From: Oscillospiraceae bacterium
GTDB lineage: Bacteria; Bacillota; Clostridia; Oscillospirales; CAG-272
Assembly (NCBI GenBank): GCA_015063485.1
Contig: SVUA01000004.1
Coordinates: 1-64,000, forward strand
DNA: 64,000 bases
Direction: 5' to 3'
The notes below the pieces were generated by a model, which searched no databases, was not told the origin of the DNA, and saw only the letters and a program-made list of their open reading frames with translations. A program made the translations under genes and the position numbers. This document shows, piece after piece, positions 8,298 through 52,485 of the stretch (its first letter is position 1; the number at the start of each line of letters is the position of its first letter).

Positions 8298-8424
8298 GGA
8301 CAGTCGAGGACGCCTGTCCCTACAAGATATGAGAAAATCGTTTGCGTTTACCTCGCCGTGAGACGACGAAAAAACGATTAGATTTCATATAACTCTATGT
8401 AGGGACAGGCGTCCTCGACTGTCC
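8298..8424 (+). repeat. palindromic element copy A (GGACAG type)
   Basis: A 127-bp element with terminal inverted repeats. The left end reads GGACAGTCGAGGACGCC and the right end is its complement. Each arm is itself a small hairpin (GGACAG pairing with CTGTCC). The centre carries AATCGTTT, a CTCGCC-GTGA hairpin near 8352-8366, and AAACGATT, which can nest inside one another. It lies between queH and rluD and has no coding capacity. The same element recurs at 19105, 35501 and 52363, with a remnant at 61719. Confidence 0.9.
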
Positions 8425-8489
8425 TAAAACCAAACAAATTCAAGTTTAACAAACAGTTATTATAAGTATCCTATGTTTTGTTTTCTTTA

Positions 8490-8542
8490 GGACTCACCGT
8501 AAGGTTAGTCCAGCTTACTTTCTTTTTCAAAAGAAAAGTAAG
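8490..8542 (-). repeat. gene-end palindrome block, copy A
   Basis: Two palindromes lie just after the rluD stop on the minus strand: arms CTTACTT/AAGTAAG at 8514-8542 around CTTTTTCAAAAG, and GGACTCACC-GTAA-GGTTAGTCC at 8490-8511. The first also follows dapB and the FkbM gene. The second occurs only here. It might act as a terminator, but there is no clear T-run. Confidence 0.65.
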
Positions 8543-8559
8543 CGCGTCCCCCGCGTCCC

Positions 8560-9540
8560 TTAACAATCCTTTTCGAGCTGCGCAAGGACGGCTTTAAAGT
8601 TATCGGGAAGCGGAGCTTCAAAAGTCATTTGTTTTTTAGTTATGGGGTGAGTAAGTCTCAATTCACGGGCGAAGAGGCACTGACCGTTTATCCATGCGCG
8701 GTGTTTAGCTTCAAAGCTCGTACCGCCTCCGCCGTAAACGGTATCGCCGAGAAGCGAATGTCCGAGAGATGCCATATGCACTCTTATCTGATGCGTTCTG
8801 CCCGTTTCAAGCTCACAACAGATATGCGTGAATTGTCCGAAACGGCGTATAACGCTCCAATGCGTGACCGCCTCTCTTGCGCGCATTGAAGGGTCGCGTA
8901 TGACCGCCATTTTTTTGCGGTCTGTGGGGTGTCTGCCGATGGGGGCGTTGACCGTTCCGCTATCCTCGCGGAAATTACCGAGAACTATCGCTTCGTAAAC
9001 ACGCGCGACCTTATGCTCCTTGATATCCTCCGCAAGAGCAAGATGCGCCGCATCGTTTTTTGCGACGACGAGCAGACCGCCCGTATCCTTATCGATACGG
9101 TGAACGATACCTGGGCGGATAACTCCGCCAATGCCCGAAAGGCTATCTCCGCAATGGTACATAAGCGCGTTCACAAGCGTTCCGTTCGGATTCCCCGCCG
9201 CGGGATGAACGACCATTCCTTGCGGCTTGTTTACGACGATAATATCGTTATCCTCGTAAACTATATCGAGCGGAATATTCTCGGGAATCGCTTCACAAAG
9301 CTCGGGTTCGGGAAGTACCACGCCAAAAGACTCGTTCCCTTTGAGCTTATAATTTTTATTTACAGGCTTATCAAAAAGCGTGACATTTCCGTCACTTATC
9401 AGCTTTGCCGCGGCGCTTCTTGTCAGCGAAAGCCTTTCCGAAAGAAAGCTGTCAAGTCTTTTTCCCGTGTCACTCTGCAAAGAGGTGACCGTCTCCGAAC
9501 GGCTATCCTCAAACGTTTCGTCCAAATAGCTATTGTTCAC
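8560..9540 (-). CDS. rluD: ribosomal large subunit pseudouridine synthase, RluD family
   Basis: RluA-family pseudouridine synthase that isomerises uridines in 23S rRNA. An S4 RNA-binding domain occupies about residues 24-80 and the catalytic domain follows, with the invariant aspartate at position 150 in HRIDKDTGG. The motif reads GG where many relatives have SG, which is a common variant. The C-terminal block RTHQIRVH is also present. It closes the division-associated operon and lies 22 bases after lspA, the same pairing as lspA-ylyB in Bacillus. Which uridine it modifies cannot be decided here. Confidence 0.93.
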   Translation of the reverse strand: MNNSYLDETFEDSRSETVTSLQSDTGKRLDSFLSERLSLTRSAAAKLISDGNVTLFDKPVNKNYKLKGNESFGVVLPEPELCEAIPENIPLDIVYEDNDIIVVNKPQGMVVHPAAGNPNGTLVNALMYHCGDSLSGIGGVIRPGIVHRIDKDTGGLLVVAKNDAAHLALAEDIKEHKVARVYEAIVLGNFREDSGTVNAPIGRHPTDRKKMAVIRDPSMRAREAVTHWSVIRRFGQFTHICCELETGRTHQIRVHMASLGHSLLGDTVYGGGGTSFEAKHRAWINGQCLFARELRLTHPITKKQMTFEAPLPDNFKAVLAQLEKDC

Positions 9541-9562
9541 AGTCGGTCACCTCCAATCATTT

Positions 9563-10114
9563 TTATTTATTTTCGTTGTTTTCGTTATTTTCAACCTTTT
9601 CTTCGACTTGAGCGTCGGTAACTGCCGCGCTCTTTTTTTCTTTCGCGGCGGCTTTTCCCTCTTGCACGATAGAAATGATACACCAAACGAAAAGTATTCC
9701 TCCGCCTACGCAAACGAAAGCGTCAGCGACGTTAAATATCCACATCCAAAGATTCGGGAACGCGCAGAAATTTAGGAAATCTATAACGTACCCAAGGCGC
9801 ACACGGTCTATCATATTTCCGATACCGCCGCCTATTATCATAGCTATCGCGGTACACGCCCACTTGCTTTCGGGACGGAATTTCCACAAATATACCAATA
9901 ACGCGGCAATAGCGACGGTAGAAACTACCATAAACACCCATCTGTTATCGCTGAGCATTCCAAACGCCGCGCCCTCATTTTTTATATAAGTAAATTCAAA
10001 AACTCCGTCAATCAAAGGAACGCTTTCCTGATAAGGAATGAAGCTTACGACAAGCCATTTTGTCGCTTGATCAAAAATGACAGAGCCTAAGATCACGAGC
10101 AACCAGACCCACAT
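9563..10114 (-). CDS. lspA: lipoprotein signal peptidase (signal peptidase II)
   Basis: LspA is the membrane aspartic protease that removes signal peptides from diacylated prolipoproteins. Four hydrophobic segments are visible. The conserved boxes NEGAAFG (residues 46-52) and GGGIGNMIDR with VIDFLNF carry the two catalytic aspartates at 103 and 112. The 183-residue protein ends in a charged, Lys/Glu/Asn-rich cytoplasmic tail longer than usual. Three lipoproteins encoded in this window (at 23061, 55998 and 60106) would be substrates. Confidence 0.96.
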   Translation of the reverse strand: MWVWLLVILGSVIFDQATKWLVVSFIPYQESVPLIDGVFEFTYIKNEGAAFGMLSDNRWVFMVVSTVAIAALLVYLWKFRPESKWACTAIAMIIGGGIGNMIDRVRLGYVIDFLNFCAFPNLWMWIFNVADAFVCVGGGILFVWCIISIVQEGKAAAKEKKSAAVTDAQVEEKVENNENNENK

Positions 10115-10144
10115 GAAATTTTCTCCATGAATACAATTTATTTT

Positions 10145-10930
10145 TTAAAGATATTTTTGCGCGATGAGGCGATATCTTCCCTTTTTCGTTTGTTCGCTGA
10201 CAGACAAAATTTTAAATTTACCATATCCGCGAACAGTAACAAGGCAAGGAGCGATAAGCGTTTTGTCGGGACGGACTACCGTCTCGTAATCGACTTCAAC
10301 AAATTCGTTCTCGACAAGCTCTCTTGCCTTATCGCGCGAGAGTGAGCATAAAGCCGCCACAACGCCGTCAGCTCTCGGGGAAGCCACTGTATCCATGACA
10401 CTCGCAAAACGCCGCACAGGTACGAAATCCTCGGGCAAAACGATATTTTCAACGCGCACCTTGTCGTTTCCAACCTTATTCCACGCCTCAAGCAAAAAAC
10501 GGACTATTTCCGAGCCGCAAAAAACTATCGCTTCTCTTCCCGTCTCGGTCACGACTATATCTCCTACAACGCTTCTCTCGATTCCGAGTCCGAGCAAAGA
10601 GCCCATAAAATCTCTATGAGAGAGCTTTGAAAAACCGCTTCCGCTGACCTTTAAAACGCTTATATCAAGTCCTTGACCATACGCTTCAAGCTCGGACACA
10701 GAGGTCAACCCCTCCATATAATCGGGCAAGATATAAAGCTTGTTACGCTCCGCGTCCGCCATACCGCCAAAGACAAGAAAATGCGCCCGTCTTTCTTCAA
10801 GTCTCTTACGCGCAAAATGAAGTTCGCGCGGAGAAAGAAAGACGCTTACCGCCGTCTCTCCGCGTTCCGCGCGTTCGCAAAGATCGTCAATTCTTGCAAA
10901 AAGGAGTTCGATATCTTCTTTTCTTTCCAT
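10145..10930 (-). CDS. ylmH: YlmH family S4-domain RNA-binding protein
   Basis: A 261-residue YlmH protein. It has an N-terminal region of about 170 residues that includes LGLGIERSVVGDIVV, then an S4 domain (about residues 180-245, RADGVVAALCSLSRDKARELVENEFVEV would fall here). In Bacillus, YlmH has been linked to rescue of stalled 50S-peptidyl-tRNA complexes. It sits three bases after yggT and 30 before lspA in the ylm cluster. In many Firmicutes divIVA follows ylmH, but here lspA follows directly. Confidence 0.93.
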   Translation of the reverse strand: MERKEDIELLFARIDDLCERAERGETAVSVFLSPRELHFARKRLEERRAHFLVFGGMADAERNKLYILPDYMEGLTSVSELEAYGQGLDISVLKVSGSGFSKLSHRDFMGSLLGLGIERSVVGDIVVTETGREAIVFCGSEIVRFLLEAWNKVGNDKVRVENIVLPEDFVPVRRFASVMDTVASPRADGVVAALCSLSRDKARELVENEFVEVDYETVVRPDKTLIAPCLVTVRGYGKFKILSVSEQTKKGRYRLIAQKYL

Positions 10931-10933
10931 ACG

Positions 10934-11197
10934 TCAAGACAAAAATATCATTATGATGCTGATAAGAAGATACGACACCATAAATGAAATATCTATGGGC
11001 ATACCTTGAAACCACCCGAAGTGCTCAAAAAGACGACGCACGGGATAAATAAAGGGTTCTGTTACACAATGCAAAAAGTCTATAAAGCGATTTTCGAGCG
11101 GAAACCAAGACAGAACCGCCCTTAACAGCATCGCCAACTGTATTGCCATCAAAAAAATCGAGACGGCGCTTTTAATGACCATTAATGCAACTGTCAA
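10934..11197 (-). CDS. YggT family membrane protein
   Basis: A small membrane protein (87 residues from the chosen start) with two hydrophobic helices, MVIKSAVSIFLMAIQLAMLL and the C-terminal FMVSYLLISIIMIFL, and the family motif RAVLSWFP. YggT (YlmG) proteins are linked to division or osmotic stress, but their mechanism is unclear. An AGGAGG at 11204-11209 lies six bases before a TTG at 11197, so TTG is a better start than the upstream ATG at 11251, which would put the ribosome binding site inside the gene. It lies between sepF and ylmH as in Bacillus. Confidence 0.88.
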   Translation of the reverse strand: MTVALMVIKSAVSIFLMAIQLAMLLRAVLSWFPLENRFIDFLHCVTEPFIYPVRRLFEHFGWFQGMPIDISFMVSYLLISIIMIFLS

Positions 11198-11275
11198 AGC
11201 GATCCTCCTAAACAAAAATTTTTGTGCCGCGCCACACAAGCAACGCGGCACATAGCCAATAACGGAATTACTGTA

Positions 11276-11677
11276 TTAGTTGCCTACCATAGCCTCGATG
11301 CTGCTTACGTCAACGTTCTTGGGAGCAACGACGATGGTGGTCTTGCCAACCTTGGTCATAAGTCCGCCGAGAACGTAGGTAGCGCCCGAAAGGTAGTCTA
11401 TCATACGAACTGCCTGCTCGCGTGCCATATTCTCAATGTTGAGAAGAACGGTGCTGCCGTTCATGAGGTAACCTGCTATCTCGGAAGCGTCCTGATAGCT
11501 CTTGGGGTTGATGATCTTGAGAGCCGCGGTATTAGGAGCGGGAGCTGCGGGAGCTGCGGGAGCATCGTCGAAATCTCCGAATCCTTCCTCTACCTCTTCC
11601 TCGGCAGTATTCATCGTTACGTCCTCTTCTGCGTCAAAAGGTCCGTACGTATTGGGCTTCTTTGAAAACTTAAACAT
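11276..11677 (-). CDS. sepF: cell division protein SepF
   Basis: SepF binds FtsZ and anchors it to the membrane. The first residues MFKFSKKPNTYGPFD fit the membrane-targeting amphipathic end, an acidic and Ala/Pro-rich linker follows (about residues 20-52), and the globular domain begins at LKIINPKSYQDA with the conserved NGSTVLLNIENM and the closing KVGKTTIVVAPKNV. GGAGG lies eight bases before the ATG at 11677. The in-frame ATG 15 bases upstream would place the ribosome binding site within the coding region and is rejected. Confidence 0.95.
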   Translation of the reverse strand: MFKFSKKPNTYGPFDAEEDVTMNTAEEEVEEGFGDFDDAPAAPAAPAPNTAALKIINPKSYQDASEIAGYLMNGSTVLLNIENMAREQAVRMIDYLSGATYVLGGLMTKVGKTTIVVAPKNVDVSSIEAMVGN

Positions 11678-11714
11678 TTTTACATCCTCCAAATTTTATA
11701 TTTATATATTTTTT

Positions 11715-12410
11715 TTACTTTACAAAAAGGCTTCTGCCTATTCGAACGATATTAGATCCGCACTCTATTGCGGGCTCAAAGCTTTCGCTCATTCCCATTG
11801 AAATAATGGGCTCACTTATATTATGCATTTTTTTTGTCCAAATGTCAAGGACTTGAGCATAAGTTTGTTGAAAATATTTTAAATAATCTTCTTTTTTGTC
11901 ACATTTTGGCGCCATAGTCATAAATCCGCGAAGTCTTATTCCCGAAAATTGCGAAAGCGACGAGCAAAATTCCTCTGCCTCGCTCGGCAAAACGCCGCTC
12001 TTGTTTTCCTCTTCTCCGCTATTTATCTCGACCAAAACGTCCATGACGAGCCCGTGTTTTTTTGCCTGCTTATCTATCTCGGCGGCAAGTTTTAGCGAGT
12101 CGAGCGAATGTATCATCGTGACCTTATCGATTATATATTTGACCTTATTGGTCTGAAGCGTTCCGATAAAATGTATATTTACGTCGGACGTATCTATCTT
12201 CTCGTAATGCTCAAGGAGCTGTTGAACTCGGTTCTCACCGATATCCTTTACTCCGCATACGTGAACAAGGTGGTCTATCTCCTCGCTCTCGGCGTATTTT
12301 ACCGCCGCGAGCAAAAGCACATCTCCCTCGCCTCTTCCCGCCAAAGAAACGGCGTTTGCCATTCTCTTGCGGATATCCGCAACGTTTCTGTCAATATAAG
12401 AAAAATCCAT
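11715..12410 (-). CDS. yggS: YggS family pyridoxal phosphate homeostasis protein
   Basis: A PLP-binding protein (PLPBP/YggS) that buffers pyridoxal 5-phosphate and affects amino-acid balance. The alanine-racemase-like barrel carries the PLP lysine in LLAAVKYAE (near residue 38), the GENRVQQLLEH block, the HFIGTLQTNKVK block, and near the C-terminus SMGMSESFEPAIECGSNIVR, the phosphate-binding region. Its place directly before sepF matches ylmE in the Bacillus ylm cluster. It starts two bases after the HlyD-like gene ends. Confidence 0.95.
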   Translation of the reverse strand: MDFSYIDRNVADIRKRMANAVSLAGRGEGDVLLLAAVKYAESEEIDHLVHVCGVKDIGENRVQQLLEHYEKIDTSDVNIHFIGTLQTNKVKYIIDKVTMIHSLDSLKLAAEIDKQAKKHGLVMDVLVEINSGEEENKSGVLPSEAEEFCSSLSQFSGIRLRGFMTMAPKCDKKEDYLKYFQQTYAQVLDIWTKKMHNISEPIISMGMSESFEPAIECGSNIVRIGRSLFVK

Positions 12411-12412
12411 AG

Positions 12413-13672
12413 CTATTCAAGAATCCTGCCTTCAAACAGATTTGTTCCGTTAAGTATTATCAGGTCGTTTGGCGCAAGGTAGACGAAGCTATCGTCTGCT
12501 CCCTCCTCGCTGACCAGATAATAATCGCTTCCCTCGTACACGATATAGATGTATCTGAAATGCACCACGCTTCCGCGAAGAATGTAAACGCCCTCGTTTC
12601 CGTCGACCGTATGGACGGCTTTCTTTGGAACGTATATTCCACTTAAGCTGTCAAGCTCTATACTAACGCTTTGGCAACGGTTGAACTCAAAGCGTTCGGG
12701 CAATCTGTCGCACTCAAAGACGAGCAACACGGAATCTCTCGTGGAGCAATCTATCTTGCTTACAAGAGTCATAGGAAGCAACGCCCCGTTATTTTCGGTA
12801 AACTCAACGTTATAATTGAGTCCTTCCTCGAAATGATCGCTCTTTTTATCCGATATCTCCATAACGAAGCCCCACTGACTGTTATCGGCAAGTTTTCCGT
12901 ATGCCGTACCGCCGTCTGAGCTGAGCGTTCGTCTTTCGGACACGAGACTTGCGAAGGATTCCGACGTCAGACTCTCGAAAGCCTCCATTGTAAAGACTTC
13001 CTCATAGCCGTCGGCGGAGGTATAAAAATAACCTCCCTTTTGCGCGGATTCGACCGCCGCTCCTCCCGAAGCCTTTATCATCTCTTCCTTTTGAGCTTTA
13101 AGCTCTTCGAGCGTTACAGCAACCTTGGAGTCGTCCTCTGTAAGAACGCTGAGTCTGTCCATGCCGACGAGGAACTCATTTATCTGCACCGAAAGCTCTC
13201 CCGTTTGTCCCGCCGCAAGCATACGGACGAGTATATAGTAATCATCGGTTATATCATTTTGAAGATCGGCTATATCTATACTCGTTACGCTTGAATCACT
13301 GCTTTTTTCAAGTATCGCTATCTGCTTATCGAGCTTTTGAACGTTTTCTCTGTCCTTTAAAGAGCCGTCGGAATACACCGTGGCAAGCTCCTGACCCACA
13401 GCTACCTTCGTTCCGTCGGAGCAAAGGTAATCGACGACACCTCCGTTTGACGAGCGCAATACCGTTTCGTCACGGAAGATATAACCCGTACCGCTCAAAG
13501 AATCGGTCTCGGTGGTAACGCCCGCGGCAAAGGTGGAGATATCCTCGCCGAAAAGGCTTATCATGTGATAAAACGTATATAAAAGAATACAAACGGCAAT
13601 TACGATAATAACGAATCGGTATTTCCACGTGTCTTTGATCTTAACGCGCTTTATGCGTTGTAATTGCAACAT
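12413..13672 (-). CDS. HlyD-like membrane-anchored protein
   Basis: A 419-residue protein with a basic N-terminus, one membrane helix at about residues 19-37 and a large outer domain. The biotinyl/lipoyl-like half-motifs (GTGYIFRDETVL, DGTKVAVGQELATVYSDG), a helical hairpin in the middle and a C-terminal beta domain with GIYVPKKAVH resemble HlyD-type adaptor subunits. No transporter is adjacent. Proteins of this kind are often found before yggS-sepF in Clostridia, so a link to division or envelope work is possible. It is the first gene after an internal promoter and is preceded by AAGGAAG. Confidence 0.75.
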   Translation of the reverse strand: MLQLQRIKRVKIKDTWKYRFVIIVIAVCILLYTFYHMISLFGEDISTFAAGVTTETDSLSGTGYIFRDETVLRSSNGGVVDYLCSDGTKVAVGQELATVYSDGSLKDRENVQKLDKQIAILEKSSDSSVTSIDIADLQNDITDDYYILVRMLAAGQTGELSVQINEFLVGMDRLSVLTEDDSKVAVTLEELKAQKEEMIKASGGAAVESAQKGGYFYTSADGYEEVFTMEAFESLTSESFASLVSERRTLSSDGGTAYGKLADNSQWGFVMEISDKKSDHFEEGLNYNVEFTENNGALLPMTLVSKIDCSTRDSVLLVFECDRLPERFEFNRCQSVSIELDSLSGIYVPKKAVHTVDGNEGVYILRGSVVHFRYIYIVYEGSDYYLVSEEGADDSFVYLAPNDLIILNGTNLFEGRILE

Positions 13673-13697
13673 CGTTCTCTTCCTTCCAAGTTTACGT

Positions 13698-13725
13698 ATT
13701 ATATATTATTTTACCACAAATTCAA
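13698..13725 (-). promoter_or_regulatory. promoter of the yggS-sepF-lspA operon
   Basis: On the minus strand, TTGAAT (13725-13720) and TATAAT (13703-13698) are 16 bp apart. The -35 box overlaps the miaA stop codon. The start point would lie just before the HlyD-like gene. Confidence 0.65.
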
Positions 13726-14660
13726 GCTTTTGAAAAGAGTTTTTTCGCACAATTTACAATCTCTTCAAATGTTTTTTCGTCTGCCTCTATCCATGAAACG
13801 TAAGGCTTTGCGGAAAACCACGTCATTTGCCTTTTAGCGTATCTCCGAGTTGCCGTTTTCAGACGTTCAACGGCAGTATCGATATCCTCTTCTCCCGCGA
13901 TATACGCAAGAAGCTCCTTATATCCTATCGCCTGCGCGGCGGTATGATTCTTCTCAAAAACACCCTCGGAAAGAAGCGCTTCCGTCTCGGCTAAAAGTCC
14001 CTCGGACATCATGATATCGACTCGCTTTTCTATTCGGCTGTAAAGCTTTTCTCTGTCAGTATAACGCAGACCTATCACCGTCGCGTCAAAGCGGTCGCCC
14101 AAAAGCTGTGAGCGTCTGTCGAGCTCGGACTTTGGCACTCCGCAAACACGGTATATCTCGATAGCGCGGACTACTCGCTTTACGTTGTTTTCGTGTATCG
14201 CTTCAGCGCTTTCAGGGTCTATCTTGCAAAGCTCCTCGTGCAAAGCGTGAGCGCCCTCTCGCTCCGCGAACGCAAACAGTTCCTCTCGTATTTTTTCATC
14301 GCCCGCCGTCTCCTCAAAGTCCGCGCCTCGTAAAAGTGAATCGAGATAAAGCCCCGTTCCACCGCAAACGATAGGAAGCTTTCCTCTCGCCGCGCAATCC
14401 TTTATCTCCGTCTCTGCAAGCTTTACGTAATCGGCGCAAGAGAAGCTCTCATCGGGCTCGGCAACGTCTATCATATGGTGTCTGATACGCGACATTTCCT
14501 CCTGCGTAGGCTTTGCCGTGCCTATGTCCATACGGCGATATATCTGCATCGAGTCGCAGGATATTATCTCTCCGTCAAGCTGTCTTGCCAACTCAAGCGC
14601 AAGCGCGCTTTTTCCGCTCGCCGTAGGTCCGACTATACACAGTATCTTTATTTTTTTCAT
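13722..14660 (-). CDS. miaA: tRNA dimethylallyltransferase MiaA
   Basis: MiaA transfers a dimethylallyl group to A37 of tRNAs that read codons starting with U. The P-loop GPTASGKSALA begins at residue 10, followed by SCDSMQIYRRMDIGTAKPT and GGTGLYLDSLL, all hallmarks of the family, and the C-terminal WFSAKPYVSWIE region. Length (312 residues) is typical. It lies 18 bases downstream of a metallophosphoesterase gene that separates it from the other tRNA-modification gene queA. Confidence 0.97.
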   Translation of the reverse strand: MKKIKILCIVGPTASGKSALALELARQLDGEIISCDSMQIYRRMDIGTAKPTQEEMSRIRHHMIDVAEPDESFSCADYVKLAETEIKDCAARGKLPIVCGGTGLYLDSLLRGADFEETAGDEKIREELFAFAEREGAHALHEELCKIDPESAEAIHENNVKRVVRAIEIYRVCGVPKSELDRRSQLLGDRFDATVIGLRYTDREKLYSRIEKRVDIMMSEGLLAETEALLSEGVFEKNHTAAQAIGYKELLAYIAGEEDIDTAVERLKTATRRYAKRQMTWFSAKPYVSWIEADEKTFEEIVNCAKKLFSKA

Positions 14661-14678
14661 CGGTTTGAAAAATTCCTT

Positions 14679-15785: not shown

Positions 15786-15799
15786 GACTTTTTCCTTTA

Positions 15800-16873: not shown

Positions 16874-16932
16874 ACGTTTTGTGTCCTTTTTGAAAATAAT
16901 AAAAATAATTGCATCAAAAACAAAAAAAGTTA

Positions 16933-16961
16933 TTGACAGATGCGTTAAGATATGCTATGAT
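16933..16961 (+). promoter_or_regulatory. promoter of the dapAB leader
   Basis: TTGACA (16933-16938) and TATGAT (16956-16961) with a 17-bp spacer. Transcription would start just before the lysine riboswitch. Confidence 0.85.
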
Positions 16962-16983
16962 ATTAACAAAGATACATATAATT

Positions 16984-17158
16984 ATGGTAGAGGCGCATTG
17001 TATCACTGCTATTCGTCAAGGCCGCCGCGGCCGCTTGAGACGGGTTTTGTGAGGATACTTTGCCGAAGGCGCATCGAAGCGGAGTCGACGCGTACTGGTT
17101 CGAACGGTTAAAAGCCGACGAATTGTCATCATATTTCAAAATGATGGAGAGCTATCTG
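16984..17158 (+). promoter_or_regulatory. lysine riboswitch (L box)
   Basis: The leader contains the conserved core pieces of the lysine riboswitch in the right order: GGTAGAGGCGC at the 5' side, GAGGATACTTTGCCGAAGGCGCA in the centre (17050 onward), and TGTCATCAT with ATGATGGAGAGCTATC at the 3' end. GGTAG (16986-16990) can pair with CTATC (17152-17156) as P1 with one wobble. Presence directly upstream of dapA, an early lysine-branch gene, supports the call. Bound lysine is expected to favour the downstream terminator and shut off dapAB. Confidence 0.88.
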
Positions 17159-17160
17159 TT

Positions 17161-17234
17161 ATTGTAATACATAGGAAATTACGTTACCTATATTATAGTA
17201 CAATTACAGCTGGTTTTCAACCGGTTTTTTTGTT
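17161..17234 (+). terminator. expression platform of the lysine riboswitch
   Basis: A terminator hairpin, CTGGTT-TTC-AACCGG (17210-17224) with weak extension, is followed by a run of Ts. Just before it ATTGTAATA/TATTATAGTACAAT and ATAGG/CCTAT (17161-17205) can form a second long hairpin. Their mutual arrangement fits transcription attenuation. I did not calculate folding energies. Confidence 0.7.
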
Positions 17235-18990: not shown

Positions 18991-19003
18991 GGGGATGCGT
19001 TAT

Positions 19004-19104
19004 GTTACTTTTTTCTTTTAAAAAAGAAAAAAGTAACCAAAAAAGAAAACGAAACATGGGTTATGTATAATAACCGTTTGAAATAATTAAATTTGATAAT
19101 TTTA
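19004..19104 (+). repeat. gene-end palindrome block, copy B
   Basis: Arms GTTACTTTTTTC/GAAAAAAGTAAC at 19004-19037 lie just after dapB. They are followed by a block with AAAAGAAAAC, AACATGGGTTAT and AATAACCGTTT, in which GGTTAT can pair with ATAACC. The same order is seen after the FkbM gene at 35398 and, inverted, after rluD. It leads directly into palindromic element copy B. Confidence 0.7.
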
Positions 19105-19229
19105 GGACCGTCGAGGACGCCGGTCCCTACGAAGTTATGTTAAATCGAAAGATTTTCCGTCGCCTTACGGCGAGGGATATGCAAACGATTTTCTCCATAC
19201 CTTGTAGGGACCGGCGTCCTCGACGGTCC
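19105..19229 (-). repeat. palindromic element copy B (GGACCG type)
   Basis: A 125-bp element with ends GGACCGTCGAGGACGCC and its complement. Relative to copy A the arms carry C for A and G for T at paired positions (GGACCG/CGGTCC against GGACAG/CTGTCC). The central hairpin CGCC-TTAC-GGCG reads CGCC-GTAA-GGCG on the minus strand. The element lies between dapB and the AraD-AraM gene. Together with the preceding block it fills this 314-base gap. Confidence 0.9.
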
Positions 19230-22167: not shown

Positions 22168-22280
22168 GTAGGGCGGGGGCTTGCTCCCGCCGAAATAAAC
22201 ATATTAAACCGAACATAACGGCGGGAGATAAACCCCCGTCCTACAACGAATACGCGTAGGTGCGAACACAACGCACCTAC
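22168..22280. repeat. two palindromic repeats with GTAGG ends
   Basis: The first (22168-22244) has imperfect arms of about 25 bp, starting GTAGGGCGGGGG and ending CCCCCGTCCTAC, with CTCCCGCCG/CGGCGGGAG inside. The second (22256-22280) is GTAGGTGCG and CGCACCTAC around seven bases. Both share the GTAGG/CCTAC end with the right arm of the elements at 8298 and 35501 (GTAGGGACAGGCG). Confidence 0.7.
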
Positions 22281-22308
22281 AAATCAAAATTTGAAGTTTT
22301 TCATAAAA

Positions 22309-30690: not shown

Positions 30691-30730
30691 CTACATTTTT
30701 CGATTTTGATATTTTTTCATAAAGAAAAGA

Positions 30731-30786
30731 AACACAGGGGACGTTTTTGTGTGTGATAAAGCACACACAGAATTGTCCTCTGTGTT
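30731..30786. repeat. 56-bp palindromic repeat, copy 1
   Basis: Ends AACACAGGGGAC and GTCCTCTGTGTT are inverted repeats, with GTGTG/CACAC inside. It lies six bases after the stop of the metallophosphoesterase gene. An almost identical copy in the same orientation lies on the other side of that gene at 31787. The ends resemble REP-type sequences that accompany single-strand (Y1) transposases. Confidence 0.85.
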
Positions 30787-30792
30787 ATTGTT

Positions 30793-31617
30793 TTAGATTA
30801 CAGTAATTTCTCTGATCGTATTACATCCGGTAATAATCTGATCTTGAGCATCCAACCCGAGAATTTCCGAATTATAGTGCGTATGTCCGCTTAAGACACA
30901 TTTAATAAATGGAGAGTTTCGGATATAATCGCAGATCTCACAGGTCAAATCGTCCGGTTTGCGCTCCCATGCGTCCACTGGATTGCAGTTCTCAAAAAAG
31001 TGCTGCGGTGCATTAAGAGAATACTTTTCCCCTTTTCCTATATACTTTGAGTGCAGAGGAATATGCATAAACAACAGGATCGGTTTTTTCTGAGCCTCAA
31101 CATTTTTTAGCTTTTCAAAGATCTCCGCATCGATACAATAATCGGTGTTATCGATTCCCACCAAATTGACACCGCAGATCTCTCTGTGAAAAAAACGGAC
31201 ATCCACTCCGAGGTGCTTCGATACAAAGGAAAGAGATTCATTTTTCTTTTCATAGGTTTTTGGAGCGTCGTCGAAATGGAAACGATTATTAGGGCATTCC
31301 CAGTATTCGTGATTTCCTGCAACCAACATCATATCCGTGCTTTGCAAAAGATCCTTGGCTATTCGGAGATTTTCGGGTGTGATAAAATCCAGCAAATCTC
31401 CGGTATTTACGATCGGATAATCGTTTTTTTGGGCGTATTCCTTCACGAAGTTCAGTGCAGCCGGTGCAAAGGAGAATGCCCGCTTACGCTCTGCGGCAAA
31501 GGCTTTTCGTTCGGGGCTATCATTTTCGTCGGATTCTGAAAGATGAATATCGGAAATATGTAATAGTACAAATGGCTTTTCCGCACCTACGGACAAAGTA
31601 TTTTTTATGATTTCCAT
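30793..31617 (-). CDS. calcineurin-like metallophosphoesterase
   Basis: A 274-residue metallophosphoesterase with complete motifs: ISDIHL (DxH), NTGDLLD, VAGNHEYW, MHIPLH and SGHTHYN. No signal peptide or membrane helix is visible, so it is probably cytoplasmic with an unknown phosphoester substrate. It stands alone, has its own promoter, and is bracketed by two copies of a 56-bp palindromic repeat, suggesting that gene plus repeats arrived or rearranged as a unit. AAGGAG precedes the ATG. It is only distantly similar, by motif, to the other metallophosphoesterase at 14679. Confidence 0.87.
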   Translation of the reverse strand: MEIIKNTLSVGAEKPFVLLHISDIHLSESDENDSPERKAFAAERKRAFSFAPAALNFVKEYAQKNDYPIVNTGDLLDFITPENLRIAKDLLQSTDMMLVAGNHEYWECPNNRFHFDDAPKTYEKKNESLSFVSKHLGVDVRFFHREICGVNLVGIDNTDYCIDAEIFEKLKNVEAQKKPILLFMHIPLHSKYIGKGEKYSLNAPQHFFENCNPVDAWERKPDDLTCEICDYIRNSPFIKCVLSGHTHYNSEILGLDAQDQIITGCNTIREITVI

Positions 31618-31765: not shown

Positions 31766-31786
31766 TGAAAAATCCAAAGCAAACAA

Positions 31787-31842
31787 AACACAGGGGACGT
31801 TTTTGCGTGTGATAAAGCACACACAGAATTGTCCTCTGTGTT
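31787..31842. repeat. 56-bp palindromic repeat, copy 2
   Basis: Same ends and inner arms as copy 1 at 30731, with one or two base differences and the same orientation. It lies just beyond the metallophosphoesterase promoter. Confidence 0.85.
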
Positions 31843-31852
31843 GTGTTTTTTG

Positions 31853-35388: not shown

Positions 35389-35397
35389 GGGAGGCGA

Positions 35398-35500
35398 CTT
35401 ACTTTTCTTCTTTTTCAAAAGAAGAAAAGTAAGCAAAAGAAGAAAACAAAACATGGGTTATTTATAATAACCGTTTGTAAAAATTAAATTTATTTATTAC
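35398..35500 (+). repeat. gene-end palindrome block, copy C
   Basis: CTTACTTTTCTTC and GAAGAAAAGTAAG (35398-35433) form a perfect palindrome ten bases after the FkbM stop. It is followed by AAGAAAACAAAACATGGG and a GGTTAT/ATAACC hairpin, as after dapB. It joins element copy C at 35501. Confidence 0.7.
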
Positions 35501-35704
35501 GGACAGTCGAGGTAGCGAAGCGACGACACGGTGGTGAATAACATCACAGTGTGATGTTAGAGCCGTGGCGTGACCGAACCGCAGTAGACCGCCTGTCCCT
35601 ACAAGGTATGGAAAAAATCGTTTGTATATCCCTCTCGCCGTAAGGCGACGAAAAAACGTTCAATTTTCATTTAACTTTGTAGGGACAGGCGTCCTCGACT
35701 GTCC
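35501..35704 (+). repeat. palindromic element copy C (GGACAG type) with insertion
   Basis: Same ends and centre as copy A, but about 77 bases are inserted in the left arm after GGACAGTCGAGG. The insert carries ACATCACAGTGTGATGT, itself a palindrome, and ends in GAACCGCAGTAGACC. The central CTCGCC-GTAA-GGCGA hairpin is at 35634-35647. The insert end also occurs in the remnant at 61719. Confidence 0.88.
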
Positions 35705-41643: not shown

Positions 41644-41644
41644 T

Positions 41645-46780: not shown

Positions 46781-46807
46781 GATGTTTCTCCCTTCGGAAA
46801 ATGTATT

Positions 46808-47830
46808 TTATCGCAAATTATGTTCCAATATAATATTATAACCTATAATTTCATTTTTTTCAAGGACTTTTACAGACTTAAAGCCATATTTTTCGCAAAA
46901 TCTCGTTTTATTTCGCCTATTTTGCCCCGAAGCCTTCGAAACAGAGCCGCGAGAGACGAAAATTTTAAGCTCTCCGCCGCGATATCCGCATCTTTCTATC
47001 TCCGCGCATATGCGGTCGAAATAAAGCTCTCCCATAGCCATCTCTCCGATAGCCGAATGATTCGCGCCCCCCACGACCTCGCTCTCGTCCGAAAGATTTT
47101 CCGAGGCGCAAAGTCCGACTCTTATACAAGGAACACTTGATCTGTCAAAGATATCAAGTACATTTTTGGTGCGTATGACCGCTTCTTCGTTTGAGATCGG
47201 TGTGTATGCTCCCTGTTTTGTCATATCGGCAAGCTCCGTACCGCGAAAAACGACGGTCGGATAGACTCTCGCGCCGACTGCCCCCAGCTCGCATATAAGA
47301 CGAGCCGTCTCCTGTTCTGTTTCAGGCGTCGAAAGAGGAAGACCTATCATCATCTGTCCGACGAGGTCAAAGCCCGCGCCGACAACGGCACGGCACGCCC
47401 GAATGGCGCACTCTCTGTCGTGTCCGCGTTTCGTAGCGGCAAGTACTTTGTCATCAAGGCTCTGGAGACCGAGTTCAATGGTTTTTACGGAGTATCTGCC
47501 GAGAATTTCAAGTATCTCTTTGTCAATGTAATCGGGACGGGTCGAGAGCCTTATAGACCCAGCCGCGCCTTTGTCTATATATCTCTGCGCACGAGTGAGT
47601 AACTCTATCATAAGAGAGCGGTCGATGCCCGTAAACGAACCGCCGAAAAAGGCTATCTCCCGCTCGGAGTCAGCTCCCGCCGTAGAGAGCACGCGCTCTA
47701 TCTCACTGTCAAGCTCGTCGGGATCAAAACTCGCGTGTCCAGATATCGTTCGTTGATTACAAAATACGCACATATTGGGACAACCCATGTGCGTAATGAA
47801 TATCGGTATGTTTATGTGTCGTTTTTTCAT
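46808..47830 (-). CDS. radical SAM protein, Elp3-like
   Basis: A 340-residue radical SAM protein of the Elp3-related group often found upstream of smc in Clostridia (YtqA-like). The cluster motif CPNMCVFCNQR lies near residue 16, followed by FFGGSFTGI and STRPDYIDKEIL, ELGLQSLDDKVLAATKRGH and MIGLPLSTPETE. A GNAT domain as in true Elp3 is not present. The reaction is unknown; tRNA modification is a reasonable guess. The start at 47830 has AGGTGG close by; a TTG nine codons earlier is possible. Confidence 0.85.
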   Translation of the reverse strand: MKKRHINIPIFITHMGCPNMCVFCNQRTISGHASFDPDELDSEIERVLSTAGADSEREIAFFGGSFTGIDRSLMIELLTRAQRYIDKGAAGSIRLSTRPDYIDKEILEILGRYSVKTIELGLQSLDDKVLAATKRGHDRECAIRACRAVVGAGFDLVGQMMIGLPLSTPETEQETARLICELGAVGARVYPTVVFRGTELADMTKQGAYTPISNEEAVIRTKNVLDIFDRSSVPCIRVGLCASENLSDESEVVGGANHSAIGEMAMGELYFDRICAEIERCGYRGGELKIFVSRGSVSKASGQNRRNKTRFCEKYGFKSVKVLEKNEIIGYNIILEHNLR

Positions 47831-47871
47831 ATGCCACCTACAAAAAATATCCGTCAATTATGCATTAATTT

Positions 47872-47900
47872 ATTTTACCACAAATTCTTAAAATAGTCAA
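47872..47900 (-). promoter_or_regulatory. promoter of the radical SAM-smc-ftsY operon
   Basis: TTGACT (47900-47895) and TAAAAT (47877-47872), spacer 17 bp, minus strand. From here the genes to yqeK are closely packed. Confidence 0.7.
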
Positions 47901-47903
47901 TAA

Positions 47904-47935
47904 AAAGAGAGACTTCACTTGTGAAATCTCTCTTT
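47904..47935 (-). terminator. terminator of the LiaF-like gene
   Basis: AAAGAGAGACTTCAC and GTGAAATCTCTCTTT pair around TT with one mismatch. It lies 20 bases after the stop; the T-run on the minus strand is short (TTTTTA). Confidence 0.75.
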
Positions 47936-47954
47936 AAAATCAATAATAGAACCC

Positions 47955-48632
47955 TTATTTTATCTCGATACCGCCGAAAACAGCAGTTCCGCTGACGTAG
48001 ATGGTCGGAGCGTCGGGGTGCGATGCCGTTTCATTTGAAGTTCCGCCGAAAATACTGTTCGAATCCAACTTAACGTTTACGTTATTCGGAACTAAAATAT
48101 CGATGCCTCCGAAGATAGCAGAAGCTTGAATAGCGCAATCTTTTTCAATGACCGCATTTCTCAGGTCGCACTCTACACCGCCAAATATGGCGTAAAGCTC
48201 CGCGCCCTCAAATATCTCACCGTCACATTTCATATCCGAACCCGAAAAAGCGGCAAATCCCCTGTTGATATTTTTGCCTTCCGATTTCAATTTTTTAATA
48301 ATTTCGTTAGTTTTTTTGCCGAAGATGGCTTTAAATATCAGCTTCAGACCGATAATAACGATAATTGCGGGAACGAGCAGCTTCCAAAGAATAGAAAAGC
48401 TCAAAATGTCCTGACAGCACAAGAACAAAAGCACGCCGATAATAATACCTATAATATTTCCGAATTTTTCCCTCTCTGTAAACAAACCGACAGTACACGG
48501 TATGATGATAAACAAAGTCCACCAACCGTCAAAAAACACGTCGATGTCGGTCACGTTAAAAGCATTCAGAGCGAATATCACGCCCGCAGCTACCAATACG
48601 ATACCAAGAATTATGCTCGTTACCTTTTTCAT
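47955..48632 (-). CDS. LiaF-like membrane protein
   Basis: A 225-residue membrane protein. Four hydrophobic segments occupy residues 5-110 (VTSIILGIVLVAAGVIFAL, WWTLFIIIPCTVGLF, IIGIIIGVLLFL, LLVPAIIVIIGLKLIF). The C-terminal half is the beta-rich LiaF-type domain with four repeats of the pattern IFGG/VFGG (AIFGGVECDL, SAIFGGIDILVP, SIFGGTSN, AVFGGIEIK). In Bacillus, LiaF restrains a cell-envelope stress two-component system. No lia kinase or regulator gene is next to it here. It has its own promoter and terminator. Confidence 0.85.
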   Translation of the reverse strand: MKKVTSIILGIVLVAAGVIFALNAFNVTDIDVFFDGWWTLFIIIPCTVGLFTEREKFGNIIGIIIGVLLFLCCQDILSFSILWKLLVPAIIVIIGLKLIFKAIFGKKTNEIIKKLKSEGKNINRGFAAFSGSDMKCDGEIFEGAELYAIFGGVECDLRNAVIEKDCAIQASAIFGGIDILVPNNVNVKLDSNSIFGGTSNETASHPDAPTIYVSGTAVFGGIEIK

Positions 48633-48690
48633 TTTTCCGTTCTCCTTATCTGCTAAAAAAGTCTTTTTGTTAAGTTGATTTTACAAAGTC

Positions 48691-48719
48691 ATTATATCAT
48701 ATGGGCATTAAAAAGTCAA
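48691..48719 (-). promoter_or_regulatory. promoter of the LiaF-like gene
   Basis: TTGACT (48719-48714) and TATAAT (48696-48691), spacer 17 bp, minus strand. Confidence 0.8.
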
Positions 48720-48750
48720 TAATTTTGCCGAATGTGAGAGGGAAAAGTTT

Positions 48751-48904
48751 CCTCAATTATTCATTATTCATCAGCGCAGTGGCTTCATTATTCATTCTTC
48801 ATTAAAAAATCCGCGTAAAAAATGAATAATGAATGATGAATAATGAAAAATGAATAATACAAACAAAAAAACCGCATTCTTACGAATGCGGATTTTTTGT
48901 TTGG
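48751..48904 (-). repeat. 154-bp tRNA-linked repeat, copy 1
   Basis: This segment matches 55355-55508 over its full length with about seven differences by eye. It contains many ATTCATTATTCAT-type units that pair with GAATAATGAAT units downstream, plus the tRNA terminator, and its last three bases are the CCA end of tRNA-His. The second copy ends at the CCA end of tRNA-Arg. Confidence 0.9.
48864..48891 (-). terminator. terminator of tRNA-His
   Basis: CCGCATTC and GAATGCGG pair around TTAC, followed on the minus strand by seven Ts. It begins 11 bases after the tRNA. Confidence 0.9.
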
Positions 48905-48979
48905 GGTGAGATATGGGATTCGAACCCACGGCCTTCAGGGCCACAACCTGACGCGCTAACCAACTGCGCCAATCCCACC
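48902..48979 (-). tRNA. tRNA-His (GTG)
   Basis: A cloverleaf on the minus strand: acceptor GTGGGAT/ATCTCAC with one wobble, D-arm GGCGCAGTTGGTTAGCGC, anticodon stem TCAGG/CCTGA around TTGTGGC with anticodon GTG, T-arm GTGGGTTCGAATCCCAT, encoded CCA. The base before the acceptor is G (G-1) opposite C73, the histidine identity element. Queuosine (queA, queH) would be made at G34 of this tRNA. Confidence 0.96.
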
Positions 48980-48998
48980 ATGTCAATCGACGGGATAT

Positions 48999-49027
48999 AT
49001 TATAACATAAAGCTCCCGATTTGTCAA
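48999..49027 (-). promoter_or_regulatory. promoter of tRNA-His
   Basis: TTGACA (49027-49022) and TATAAT (49004-48999), spacer 17 bp, minus strand, about 20 bases before the tRNA. Confidence 0.85.
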
Positions 49028-49096
49028 CACCAAATTTCAATTTTTTTGCTTTTTATTTTTTTGACCGATTTTTATATGCAAATCTCCGCTTTTCTA

Positions 49097-49125
49097 TTGA
49101 CAAATCGACAAAAACAGTGTATAAT
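49097..49125 (+). promoter_or_regulatory. promoter of pflBA
   Basis: TTGACA (49097-49102) and TATAAT (49120-49125), spacer 17 bp. Transcription would begin close to the ZTP aptamer. Confidence 0.88.
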
Positions 49126-49144
49126 GATATCGTAATCAAATAGA

Positions 49145-49218
49145 CCTTACGTGACTGACGGAATCGCGGAGCACCGCGGGGGAACGTATTGGTCAATTTA
49201 ATGCCGACCGTCTGGGCA
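49145..49218 (+). promoter_or_regulatory. ZTP/ZMP riboswitch (pfl motif)
   Basis: The segment shows the conserved pieces of the pfl RNA motif: CGTGACTGACG at 49150-49160, GCGGAGCACCGCGGGGGAACG with the GGGGAAC box at 49178-49186, and after a short linker CCGACCGTCTGGGCA at 49204-49218 (consensus CCGCCTGGGCA). It is known to sense ZTP/ZMP, signals of 10-formyl-tetrahydrofolate shortage, and to switch on downstream genes. Here it controls pflBA, whose product formate feeds that folate pool. Confidence 0.93.
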
Positions 49219-49266
49219 ATTCAGCTTAAAAAAACTGGATTGCCCTGTTTTGTTTACAGGGCAATC
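49214..49266 (+). terminator. expression platform with two competing hairpins
   Basis: GGGCAAT (49214-49220) can pair with ATTGCCC (49239-49245), helped by CAG/CTG inside, then TGTTTTGTTT: a terminator that uses the aptamer's 3' strand. GATTGCCCTG (49238-49247) can instead pair perfectly with CAGGGCAATC (49257-49266). Only one of the two can form. Confidence 0.85.
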
Positions 49267-49299
49267 AAAGGCAAACATTTACAGAGGAGGTATTTACAC

Positions 49300-51531
49300 A
49301 TGAAACACGAAAATTGGAACGGTTTTATCGGAGGGGTTTGGCAGGATACTATCGACGTACGCGATTTTATCCAGAAGAACTACCGCGAGTACACGGGGGA
49401 CGGAAGCTTTTTGTCCTCGGCTACTCCCCGTACGAAAGCTCTTATGGACAAGGTTCAAGCACTTTTTGCAGAGGAAAGAAAGAGAGGCGGAGTTCTTGAC
49501 ATAGACACGCAGACAACGTCGTCGCTCAAAAACTACGCTCCGGGTTACATCGATAAAGAAAACGAGCTTATCGTCGGAATGCAGACCGATGCTCCCTTAA
49601 AACGCGGAGTTCACCCCTTTGGCGGTATCCGTATGGCAAGACAGGCGTGTAAGGCTTACGGCTACGAGCTCGGCGAACAGATAGAGACGAGCTTCAGATA
49701 CCGCACGACTCACAACGACGGCGTTTTCAGAGCATACACCGATGAGATGCGCGCCGCTCGTAAATGTCACATTATAACGGGACTTCCCGACGCTTACGGC
49801 CGCGGACGTATAATCGGCGACTACCGCCGCGTTGCTCTTTACGGAATCGACCGTCTTATCGAAGAAAAGGTAAAGGACAAAAACGCGCTTGCCGCGGGCG
49901 ATTTCAATACCGAAGAGGTCAGAATTACCGAGGAGCTCTTCCAGCAGATAACCTTCCTTGGCTACATAAAGGATATGGCGGCTATGTACGGCGTTGACAT
50001 AAGCAAACCCGCAAGTAACGCAAAGGAAGCTATCCAGTGGACCTATTTCGGCTACCTCGCGGCTATCAAGGAGCAGAACGGAGCGGCTATGTCGCTCGGC
50101 CGCGTAAGCACGTTCTTTGATATCTACGTTGAGCGTGATATCGAGCGCGGAATACTCACCGAAGAGGGTGCGCAGGAGCTTTACGACGACTTCGTTATAA
50201 AGCTTCGCATAGCGCGTCACCTCCGCACCCCCGAGTACAACGAGCTTTTTGGCGGCGACCCGATGTGGATAACCGAATCGGTCGGCGGTATGGGCGAGGA
50301 CGGAAGAACGCTTGTAACAAAGGGCAGCTTCCGTATGCTGAATACCCTTTACACGCTCGGCTCTTCTCCCGAACCTAACCTTACGATTCTTTGGGCTAAG
50401 GCTCTTCCCGACGGATTTAAGAAGTTCTGCGCCAAGGTATCGGCTGACACCGACTCGATACAGTACGAAAACGACGACCTTATGCGCGAATATTACGGAG
50501 ACGATTACGCTATCGCGTGTTGCGTTTCCGCCATGAAGATAGGTAAGCAGATGCAGTTCTTCGGGGCGAGAGGCAACCTTGCAAAGCTTCTCCGTCTCGC
50601 AATAAACGGCGGATACGATACGCTGAGCGATATGCATATAGGTCCTCAAATGGAGGCGATGACGGGCGACAAGCTCGACTTTGACGAGGTCATGCGCCGC
50701 ATGGATATCTATATGGATTGGCTCTCAAGGCTCTACGTCAATACTATGAACGTTATCCACTATATGCACGACAAATACGCGTATGAAAAATCGCAGATGG
50801 CTCTGCACGACACCAAGGTCGACAGATTTATGGCGTTCGGTATCGCGGGACTTTCGGTAGTTGCCGATTCCCTTTCGGCTATCAAGTACGCAAACGTAAA
50901 GCCTGTACGCGACGAAAACGGATATATCGTAAGCTTTGAGACAACGGGAGACTTCCCGAAGTTTGGAAACGACGACGACAGAGTTGACCTTATCGCAAAG
51001 GATATGACGCACAAATTCATCACCGCCTTGAGAAAAACCCCGACTTACAGAAACGCGATGCATACACTCTCTGTACTGACCATTACCTCTAACGTAATGT
51101 ACGGCAAGAACACGGGCGCAACTCCCGACGGCAGAGGCGCGGGCGAGCCCTTTGCCCCAGGTGCGAACCCAATGCACAACCGAGAGGAGAACGGTGCGCT
51201 CGCCTCGCTCAACTCGGTAGCAAAGCTCTCTTACGACGATTGCCGTGACGGTATCTCCAACACCTTCTCAATAACACCCGACGCACTTGGAAGAAGCGAG
51301 GACGAACGTATATGCAACCTCGTATCTATCCTTGACGGATATTTCGCAAAGAGAGCGCATCATATAAACGTAAATGTGCTAAACAGAGAAACGCTTATGA
51401 AAGCATATGAAGATCCCGAGGCTTATCCGAACCTCACCATAAGAGTTTCAGGCTACGCCGTTAACTTCAACAAGCTCTCGCGTGAACAGCAGAAGGAAGT
51501 TATCAGCCGTACCTTCCACGAAACAGTATGA
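49300..51531 (+). CDS. pflB: formate C-acetyltransferase (pyruvate formate-lyase)
   Basis: PflB converts pyruvate and CoA to acetyl-CoA and formate under anaerobic conditions by a glycyl radical. The 743-residue protein has the two active cysteines at 407-408 ([10 protein letters not shown]) and the radical glycine at 718 in RVSGYAV, followed by the expected C-terminal end. AGAGGAGG lies at 49283-49290 before the ATG at 49300. The frame stays open upstream to 49189 through the riboswitch, but that part is not coding. It overlaps pflA by four bases (ATGA). Confidence 0.97.
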
Positions 51532-52244
51532 AAAACAAAAAAACGACCGTAGGGCGCGTACACTCTATACAAAGTCTCGGCGCGCTCGACGGTCCGGGTA
51601 TAAGATTCGTAGTCTTTTTGCAGGGGTGCAATCTCCGTTGCGGCTGCTGCCACAATCCTGACACTTGGGATATGGCAGGCGGCACTGACCATACTCCCGC
51701 GGAGATAGTTGAAAAAGCATCTCGTTACCGTGAATATTTCGGTAATGAGGGCGGCATAACTGTCTCAGGCGGTGAACCTCTTTTGCAGGCGGATTTTGTA
51801 AAGGAAATATTCGAGCTTTCACACGAGGAAGGCATAAACACTTGTCTTGATACGTCAGGAAGTATATTGAACGACAAGGTAAAAGCTCTGCTCACCGTGA
51901 CCGACCGCGTATTGCTTGATCTCAAATACACAAGTGACGCTGATTATCTCAAATACGTCGGTTGCTCGATAGAAAGACCGTTTGAATTTCTCTCTTACCT
52001 GAACGAAAAAAATATCCCCGTAACGCTCCGTCAGGTAATTATCCCGACGCTAAACGACAACGAGGAAAACATTTTGAAATTGAAGTATATCGCAAAGGCT
52101 CACGCTTGCGTTGATAAAATAGAGCTTCTGCCTTTCCGCAAGATATGTCAGGTAAAATACGACAAAATGGGAATCGATTTTCCCTTTGCCGATATTCCCG
52201 AAGCGAGTAAAGAAAAGGTTGCAGAGCTTGAAAAGCTGTTATAA
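51528..52244 (+). CDS. pflA: pyruvate formate-lyase activating enzyme
   Basis: PflA is the radical SAM enzyme that installs the glycyl radical in PflB. The 4Fe-4S motif reads [15 protein letters not shown] (CxxxCxxC) near residue 31, preceded by [13 protein letters not shown]. The [13 protein letters not shown] block and the later LDLKYTS and [13 protein letters not shown] segments are also typical. 238 residues is normal. Its start overlaps the pflB stop, so both are made from the ZTP-controlled transcript. A strong terminator follows. Confidence 0.96.
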
Positions 52245-52247
52245 AAC

Positions 52248-52287
52248 AAAACTCCCACAGACCAAACAAACGGTTTGTGGGAGTTTT
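52248..52287 (+). terminator. terminator of pflBA
   Basis: AAACTCCCACA and TGTGGGAGTTT pair, followed by TTT. It begins three bases after the pflA stop. Confidence 0.9.
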
Positions 52288-52300
52288 TTGGAGACGCGTG

Positions 52301-52325
52301 GTAAATTGCGGTTTATCGGGGAGAT
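52301..52325 (+). repeat. copy of a dispersed 25-mer (AAATTGCGGTTTATCGG type)
   Basis: The core AAATTGCGGTTTATCGGGGA also occurs with small changes on the minus strand at 197-221 and 61828-61852 and weakly at 52991-53014. Each copy lies next to a palindromic repeat. Confidence 0.6.
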
Positions 52326-52362
52326 CGTTATATCGATTGATTGGTTTAAATCGTTTGTATTA

Positions 52363-52485
52363 GGACCGTCGAGGACGCCGGTCCCTACAAGATAAATTAT
52401 GATCGTTAGGGTTTTCTATCGCCTCACGGCGAGGTATATGTGTACAATTTTTTCACACTGTAGGGACCGGCGTCCTCGACGGTCC
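52363..52485 (-). repeat. palindromic element copy D (GGACCG type)
   Basis: A 123-bp element with ends GGACCGTCGAGGACGCC and its complement. The central hairpin CGCC-TCAC-GGCG reads CGCC-GTGA-GGCG on the minus strand. No gene-end palindrome precedes it; the pflA terminator is 75 bases away. It lies between pflA and the convergent NUDIX gene. Confidence 0.9.

Follow-up and report, generated by a model that had tools for sequence, protein, structure and literature searches.

The DNA studied here (the window: 64,000 nucleotides, positions 1-64,000 of contig SVUA01000004.1, assembly GCA_015063485.1, from an Oscillospiraceae bacterium of CAG-272) carries a dispersed palindromic element. This element is very probably a doublet of repetitive extragenic palindromes (REPs), resembling REPINs and bacterial interspersed mosaic elements (BIMEs), that is recognised and moved in trans by a REP-associated tyrosine transposase (RAYT), with its sequence types being the recognition hairpins of different RAYT lineages. 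The GTAG-hairpin anatomy and its covariation, the presence of the same hairpins in the RAYT reading frames of relatives, and the association between dispersed REP type and RAYT type are observed. Binding, cleavage, mobility and single-stranded intermediates are what we infer from them.

Each element consists of two inverted arms approximately 70 nt apart, with GTAG facing inward. The 26-nt arm (GTAGGGACMGGCGTCCTCGACKGTCC) folds alone: GGACMG pairs with CKGTCC, and a mismatch at stem position 7/16 (G.A), CG/CG and a four-base loop complete the hairpin. A preliminary description of the window had reported four full copies (8298, 19105, 35501 and 52363), two in each orientation, with either GGACAG/CTGTCC or GGACCG/CGGTCC arms that differ by matched A-to-C and T-to-G changes. 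All four positions hold a copy, but that at 35501 is split in its left arm by an insert of about 77 nt. Exact arms of both types, A/T and C/G, lie at the coordinates given in that description, seven of them uninterrupted (Table 1), and none occurred in 100 shuffles. Spacer direction bears out the orientations: 8298 and 35501 point one way and 19105 and 52363 the opposite way (35501 as judged by eye and from the spacer tree). The matched change is real, but each arm is a hairpin, so four sites change per element. The window also holds a degenerate fifth copy. The start or end of the insert at 35501 recurs, apparently at the same loop point, in the loci L059 and L075 and in the relic at 61719; it may be a separate mobile element targeting REP loops. 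A REP-like string at 51578-51596, within the frame 51528-52244, agrees with the C/G arm body at 17 of 19 letters and may be due to chance.

The assembly of this genome (G000; 1.97 Mb, 87% complete) contains 93 arms at up to three mismatches, 46 forward and 47 reverse, and a reversed-pattern control gave none. Inverted doublets of 119-129 bp account for 76 arms, forming 38 pairs with the narrow spacing characteristic of REPINs and BIMEs; 30 of the 38 make up our doublet alignment (A5). Three further pairs (L046, L048 and L057) stand in the opposite order, with GTAG outside. Having GTAG at the foot of a palindrome of 20-40 nt, the arms belong to the GTAG-type REPs, and this foot is altered in 3/93 arms (L051, L052 and L058). 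The doublets are high in copy number and mostly intergenic: by a crude open reading frame call, one of the 38 lies within a frame of at least 120 aa, and the neighbouring frames converge on 19 of the doublets and diverge from 3. This placement, together with the stability of the predicted folds, would suit an RNA role in which transcribed hairpins are kept for gene expression as terminators or mRNA stabilisers. We regard such a role as very improbable. Rfam and tRNA scans of the window returned ordinary features only, with no Rfam match at the element sites, and an RNA role leaves the GTAG foot and the transposase linkage unexplained. Moreover, at the site of the 19105 element, 8 of the 11 relatives' loci examined have no arm (376-600 bp downstream of the orthologous gene), two have another REP element and one was untestable.

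Exact to type are 74 of the 93 arms, 41 A/T and 33 C/G. The 19 others contain 13 stem substitutions, of which none is compensated, 5 give GU pairs and 8 break the pair. Single copies therefore drift, and the difference between A/T and C/G is a subfamily mark. Hence the two findings that, according to the preliminary description, would speak against selection on structure, namely unpaired substitutions in other copies and an origin of the types by duplication, were both made in part: one in the 19 deviating arms, the other in that the types are subfamilies linked to different transposase lineages. Because no private stem substitution is compensated and the two types map to such subfamilies, the pattern in the window is a subfamily difference, i.e., one kind of change and not repeated selection. 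A long stem between the arms was inseparable from a hairpin per arm in this genome, where all four sites change together.

The locus L048 lies inside a reading frame with the motif MPNHIH, a transposase gene. A RAYT profile made from four proteins, including the open fragment of the genome itself, was run against 30 genomes of the genus and matched in 25, the own one among them. The single RAYT locus that it found in the own genome (G000:C16, C/G type) is broken: stop codons interrupt it, and its two overlapping pieces lie in different frames, so the elements may be fossils or may be moved by an unassembled gene. A search with Y1_Tnp (PF01797) had given no match in this genome and first argued against a RAYT; this was overturned, as that model is too distant and the four-protein profile found the broken copy. 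For all three relatives' proteins compared with NCBIfam, the best match was NF047646 (REP-associated tyrosine transposase). The best PDB match by sequence was 4er8, E. coli TnpA-REP with a REP hairpin (E 4.5e-7), and 4er8 was again best by predicted fold (mean predicted local distance difference test score 74.7, 13 sequences). An HUH motif and a single-Tyr Y1 fold nearest TnpA-REP thus place these proteins among the RAYTs. Within the genus, typing covered the fetched loci. Of 116 loci, namely L111-L146 and 80 from gut Clostridia or Oscillospiraceae, 84 contributed the 87 distinct RAYT frames retained by a motif filter, and the other 32 failed the filter or duplicated a protein. NHIH occurs in 75 of these frames, WQ in 69, and C-terminal ENP in 59 and NNP in 5.

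The RAYT genes themselves carry the hairpins. At least one forward hairpin before HUH and at least one reverse hairpin after it were found in 74 of the 87 frames, 72 having exactly one each, whereas the same detector found an inverted pair in 8/1333 other stop-to-stop frames (150-400 aa, loci L150-L229). Ten of the remaining frames have the second hairpin only, one the first only and two none; most of the absent hairpins are visibly decayed. The first hairpin is in frame in 75/75 cases, coding Val-Gly, and the second is in the Pro-Thr frame in 76/86. Such in-frame REPs are characteristic of RAYT subclass 2.4. In the predicted model the hairpin-coded residues (~40-48 and ~95-103) form lower-confidence loops. 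Cognate REPs outside the frame occur within 600 bp of 5/85 genes (at up to two mismatches) and in the whole fetched flank of 11/85, flanks being of varying length and some loci shorter than 600 bp. Unlike in a REPtron, where the gene is flanked by its own REPs, the REPs here sit inside the frame. Because of the hairpins that it contains, a RAYT gene would be of one type with its substrate. A lone REP of a third type (GTAGGGCGGGGGCTTGCTCCCGCC) at 22168-22191 of the window is identical to the in-gene hairpin of the RAYTs of genomes G006 and G024.

The idea that structure is kept beyond sequence finds its support in these in-gene REPs of relatives, which covary, and not in the private stem substitutions of the own genome. 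When scored for covariation, the in-gene REPs lay above shuffled sequences. Of 58 distinct in-gene hairpins, 44 are 22 nt long; in these, 98.9% of stem cells are paired and covariation is 0.483 against 0.121 in shuffles that ignore relatedness. With nine decayed hairpins readable as 22-mers added (53 distinct; other decayed ones excluded), the values are 97.2% and 0.443 against 0.121. Of 72 genes, 36 have the same sequence in both hairpins (shuffles: mean 3.3, maximum 8). The unequal hairpins of the other 36 show 17 two-sided and 4 one-sided stem-pair differences, a count biased towards paired changes, as the detector tolerated only one mismatch and so under-counted broken stems. Because unequal hairpins each retain their own pairing, the local hairpin, not the long inter-arm stem, is the conserved unit. 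Stem position 7/16 is purine-purine (G.A, A.G or A.A) in 108/117 in-gene 22-mers.

Template switching between arms in the course of replication, or gene conversion between copies, could also perfect palindromes and spread variants without structural selection. The one-sided hybrid arms L039 and L056 would fit such a mechanical origin, as would two features described below, the mismatch between arm type and surroundings at 19105 and the mixed spacer direction, which points to the arms as sites of recombination or re-insertion. We nevertheless consider it rather unlikely, since correction should erase the purine-purine mismatch, yet this is present in nearly all in-gene 22-mers, and correction between hairpins would erase the locally compensated differences within genes. 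The most fitting reading of the conserved structure is a DNA hairpin that serves a transposase.

REP types are linked to RAYT lineages. In a RAYT tree with the REP-coded residues removed, in which columns are few and many forks unresolved, four A/T-type RAYTs (L122, L123, L128 and L162) cluster together (97/96), as do 15 C/G-type RAYTs, joined by the hairpin-less L184 (97/80). Neither type is confined to one clade, because a second A/T pair (L174/L185) and further C/G rows are placed elsewhere. With in-gene copies subtracted by hand, at least three dispersed exact copies are present in 13/15 genome-type cells with a cognate RAYT versus 15/105 without (Fisher 3.4e-8). For single types, Fisher p is 0.002 and 0.007 (two rarer types) and 0.016 (C/G). 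The type beginning GGGACGACG is confined to the two genomes having that RAYT, and the type beginning GGGGCGACG reaches 27 and 19 copies in the two where its RAYT is present and no more than three in any of the other 28. With types that belong to different RAYT lineages, the paired change would mark an element's transposase. Candidate specificity residues were also sought: 14 positions separate 21 C/G rows from the main A/T group. As the two rows of L174/L185 have just 2 of these positions in common with it, we claim no specificity residue.

Several observations weigh against a RAYT-driven doublet. The C/G-type RAYTs are not one clade, with L170, L172, L180, L186 and L191 outside the main group, and the A/T type alone is weakly associated (Fisher 0.068). 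In the own genome no A/T RAYT was found, yet A/T arms are the commoner ones. Genomes G015 (37 A/T, 34 C/G), G028 (26 A/T) and G012 (10 A/T) have no cognate RAYT in the fetched loci, and the largest C/G exceptions are G015, G027, G007, G019 and G018. These exceptions could reflect loss of the RAYT, gaps in the assemblies or mobilisation by a related RAYT. The NF047646 matches of the three proteins score 52.6-68.8 bits, under the curated cut-off of 80. Furthermore, 29 of the 38 doublets lie within larger repeats, so the moving unit may not be the doublet alone, and no excision or insertion event was directly seen. At 19105, relatives are too divergent to offer a clean empty site, being ~70% identical in the neighbouring gene.

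Using loose patterns, we assigned 15 doublets to an A-type flanking repeat, 14 to a C-type flanking repeat and 9 to neither. The C-flank repeat, a unit of ~237 bp, resembles a miniature inverted-repeat transposable element (MITE); its terminal inverted repeats are imperfect (by eye, AAATTNNGNTTTATCGG), and its halves recur in 17/47 other own-genome loci. Together with the high share of flanked doublets, this recurrence would agree with the larger repeat being the mobile unit, with a different transposase moving it and the REPs carried along. This appears improbable, given the nine doublets without either flank, the C/G arms within an A flank at 19105 and the fact that REP type follows RAYT type across genomes. 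Ends of the C-flank repeat without an intact doublet between them lie at 198-219, 22261-22292, 53134-53152 and 61655-61850. In L051 (1012) and L052 (1005), C-flank repeats have a single REP body without GTAG at the doublet position; these could be deletion products or ancestors.

The spacer tree contains a well-supported C-type group (99.9/99), and placements within its A part have modest support. L050, which has A/T arms, falls inside the C-type group, at its base; the C/G-armed 19105 element falls outside, as do the C/G elements without either flank (L034, L037 and L071). Because the C/G arms of 19105 are combined with a spacer and flank of A type, arms can switch type separately, and arms and spacers have separate histories. 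Both 19105 and L050, with its A/T arms on a C-type spacer, speak against plain duplication. Relative to the flank, the spacer has the same direction in 4 and the opposite direction in 10 C-flank elements, and in 6 and 9 A-flank elements, respectively, a mixture that spacer flipping or re-insertion at the arms would produce.

In the mechanism that we favour, a Y1/HUH transposase of the RAYT (TnpA-REP) group would recognise each arm as folded single-stranded DNA. It would bind GTAG and the mismatched hairpin, cut and rejoin, and doublets would spread by copying or moving in trans. The purine-purine mismatch at 7/16 would belong to the recognised shape, and the A/T and C/G types would be recognition hairpins of different RAYT lineages. 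We tentatively suggest, as a conceivable extension, that the gene might encode both key and lock: with hairpins on either side of HUH, selection would act on DNA shape, and protein and DNA specificity would change together. Dispersed elements might then take up a type switch through replacement of their arms, whatever their spacer, and the spacer might flip.

The following comparisons refer to parts of the cited papers. In-frame REPs within the RAYT gene have been described as unique to subclass 2.4, where they lie as a rule between HuH and Y and accompany flanking REPs (Quentin 2018, PMC6006769); that paper maps this subclass to group 4 of Bertels 2017. Our genes share with subclass 2.4 an HUH-Y1 protein with NHIH and WQ, long REPs with a GC-rich foot, and in-frame REPs. 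They differ in having inverted hairpins on both sides of HUH and few flanking REPs, and their C-terminal motif is mostly ENP (59/87; NNP 5/87), compared with YIxNNP in subclass 2.4. As in REPINs, inverted REP doublets form hairpins and types are tied to different RAYTs, and compensatory changes are reported to be common in the REPIN hairpin (of the intervening sequence; Bertels and Rainey 2011, PMC3116915); unlike in REPINs, the doublet is ~125 bp long and REPs lie within, not next to, the RAYT gene. GTAG REP families (Di Nocera 2013, PMC3733652) have in common with ours the GTAG foot, the palindrome, TT and HH dimers and intragenic copies, whereas the phyla listed in that source exclude Bacillota and the host here belongs to the gut Clostridia. 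E. coli REP and TnpA-REP (PMC8266576, 4er8) share GTAG plus hairpin, a conserved internal mismatch and the fold; loop and stem differ, and the protein sequence is distantly related. E. coli TnpA-REP requires the hairpin mismatch (PMC8266576), which is echoed by position 7/16.

A literature search for REPs in Clostridia or Firmicutes found no papers; among the papers listed by further searches, and going by titles and the beginnings of abstracts, only PMC6006769, PMC8266576 and a congress report (PMC3520747) concern RAYT-linked REPs, and PMC8040213, in its portion consulted, treats REPs only in general terms. Thus, in-frame REPs in RAYT genes (PMC6006769) and compensatory REPIN changes (PMC3116915) are already known, whereas the hairpin on each side of HUH, the scarcity of flanking REPs, the matching dispersed families and the host group are new. 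A supplementary figure of PMC6006769 may already show the upstream in-gene site. The results address the open question of how REP and transposase specificity shifts, given their supposed coevolution. As each of dozens of related transposase genes contains a hairpin pair of its own, the likely cognate site can be read from the gene sequence, and the specificity code becomes testable by comparison and biochemistry. The results also add gut Clostridia, with several families in a genome, to the hosts of RAYT-linked REPs.

Table 1. Positions of REP arms, spacers and flanking repeats in the window.
Feature	Positions	Strand	Basis
REP arm, A/T type (GTAG + hairpin)	8298..8323	-	exact match
Doublet 1 spacer	8324..8398	.	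spacer tree
REP arm, A/T type	8399..8424	+	exact match
A-type flank repeat, common to 35.5 kb copy	8432..8487	.	86% inverted match to 35440-35495
A-type flank repeat adjoining doublet 2	18992..19101	.	75% direct match to 35389-35498
REP arm, C/G type, within element of A-type spacer and flank	19105..19130	-	exact match, spacer tree
Doublet 2 spacer, outside C-type spacer group	19131..19203	.	spacer tree
REP arm, C/G type	19204..19229	+	exact match
Interrupted left REP arm of 35.5 kb copy, part 1	35501..35512	-	
Insert of ~77 nt in loop of 35501 arm (ends approximate)	35513..35589	.	
Interrupted left arm of 35.5 kb copy, part 2 with GTAG foot	35590..35604	-	
REP arm, A/T type	35679..35704	+	exact match
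C-type flanking repeat, half	52303..52362	-	60-nt half full-length, 87-98% identity, 17/47 other own-genome loci
REP arm, C/G type	52363..52388	-	exact match
Doublet 4 spacer	52389..52459	.	spacer tree
REP arm, C/G type	52460..52485	+	exact match
C-type flanking repeat, other half	52486..52538	-	92% match to 53-nt half
Degenerate arm, fifth copy, inside decayed C-type flank	61719..61751	-	

Other features of the window include a lysine riboswitch (16980-17162) and a ZMP/ZTP riboswitch (49141-49224), both found by the Rfam scan. A different 70-nt repeat (ACACAGGGGACG...GTCCTCTGTG) occurs at 30725-30794 and 31781-31850, with 91% identity and a separation of ~1 kb. Finally, a 193-bp direct repeat at 48742-48934 and 55346-55538, also 91% identical, overlaps the tRNA-His and tRNA-Arg genes at their ends.

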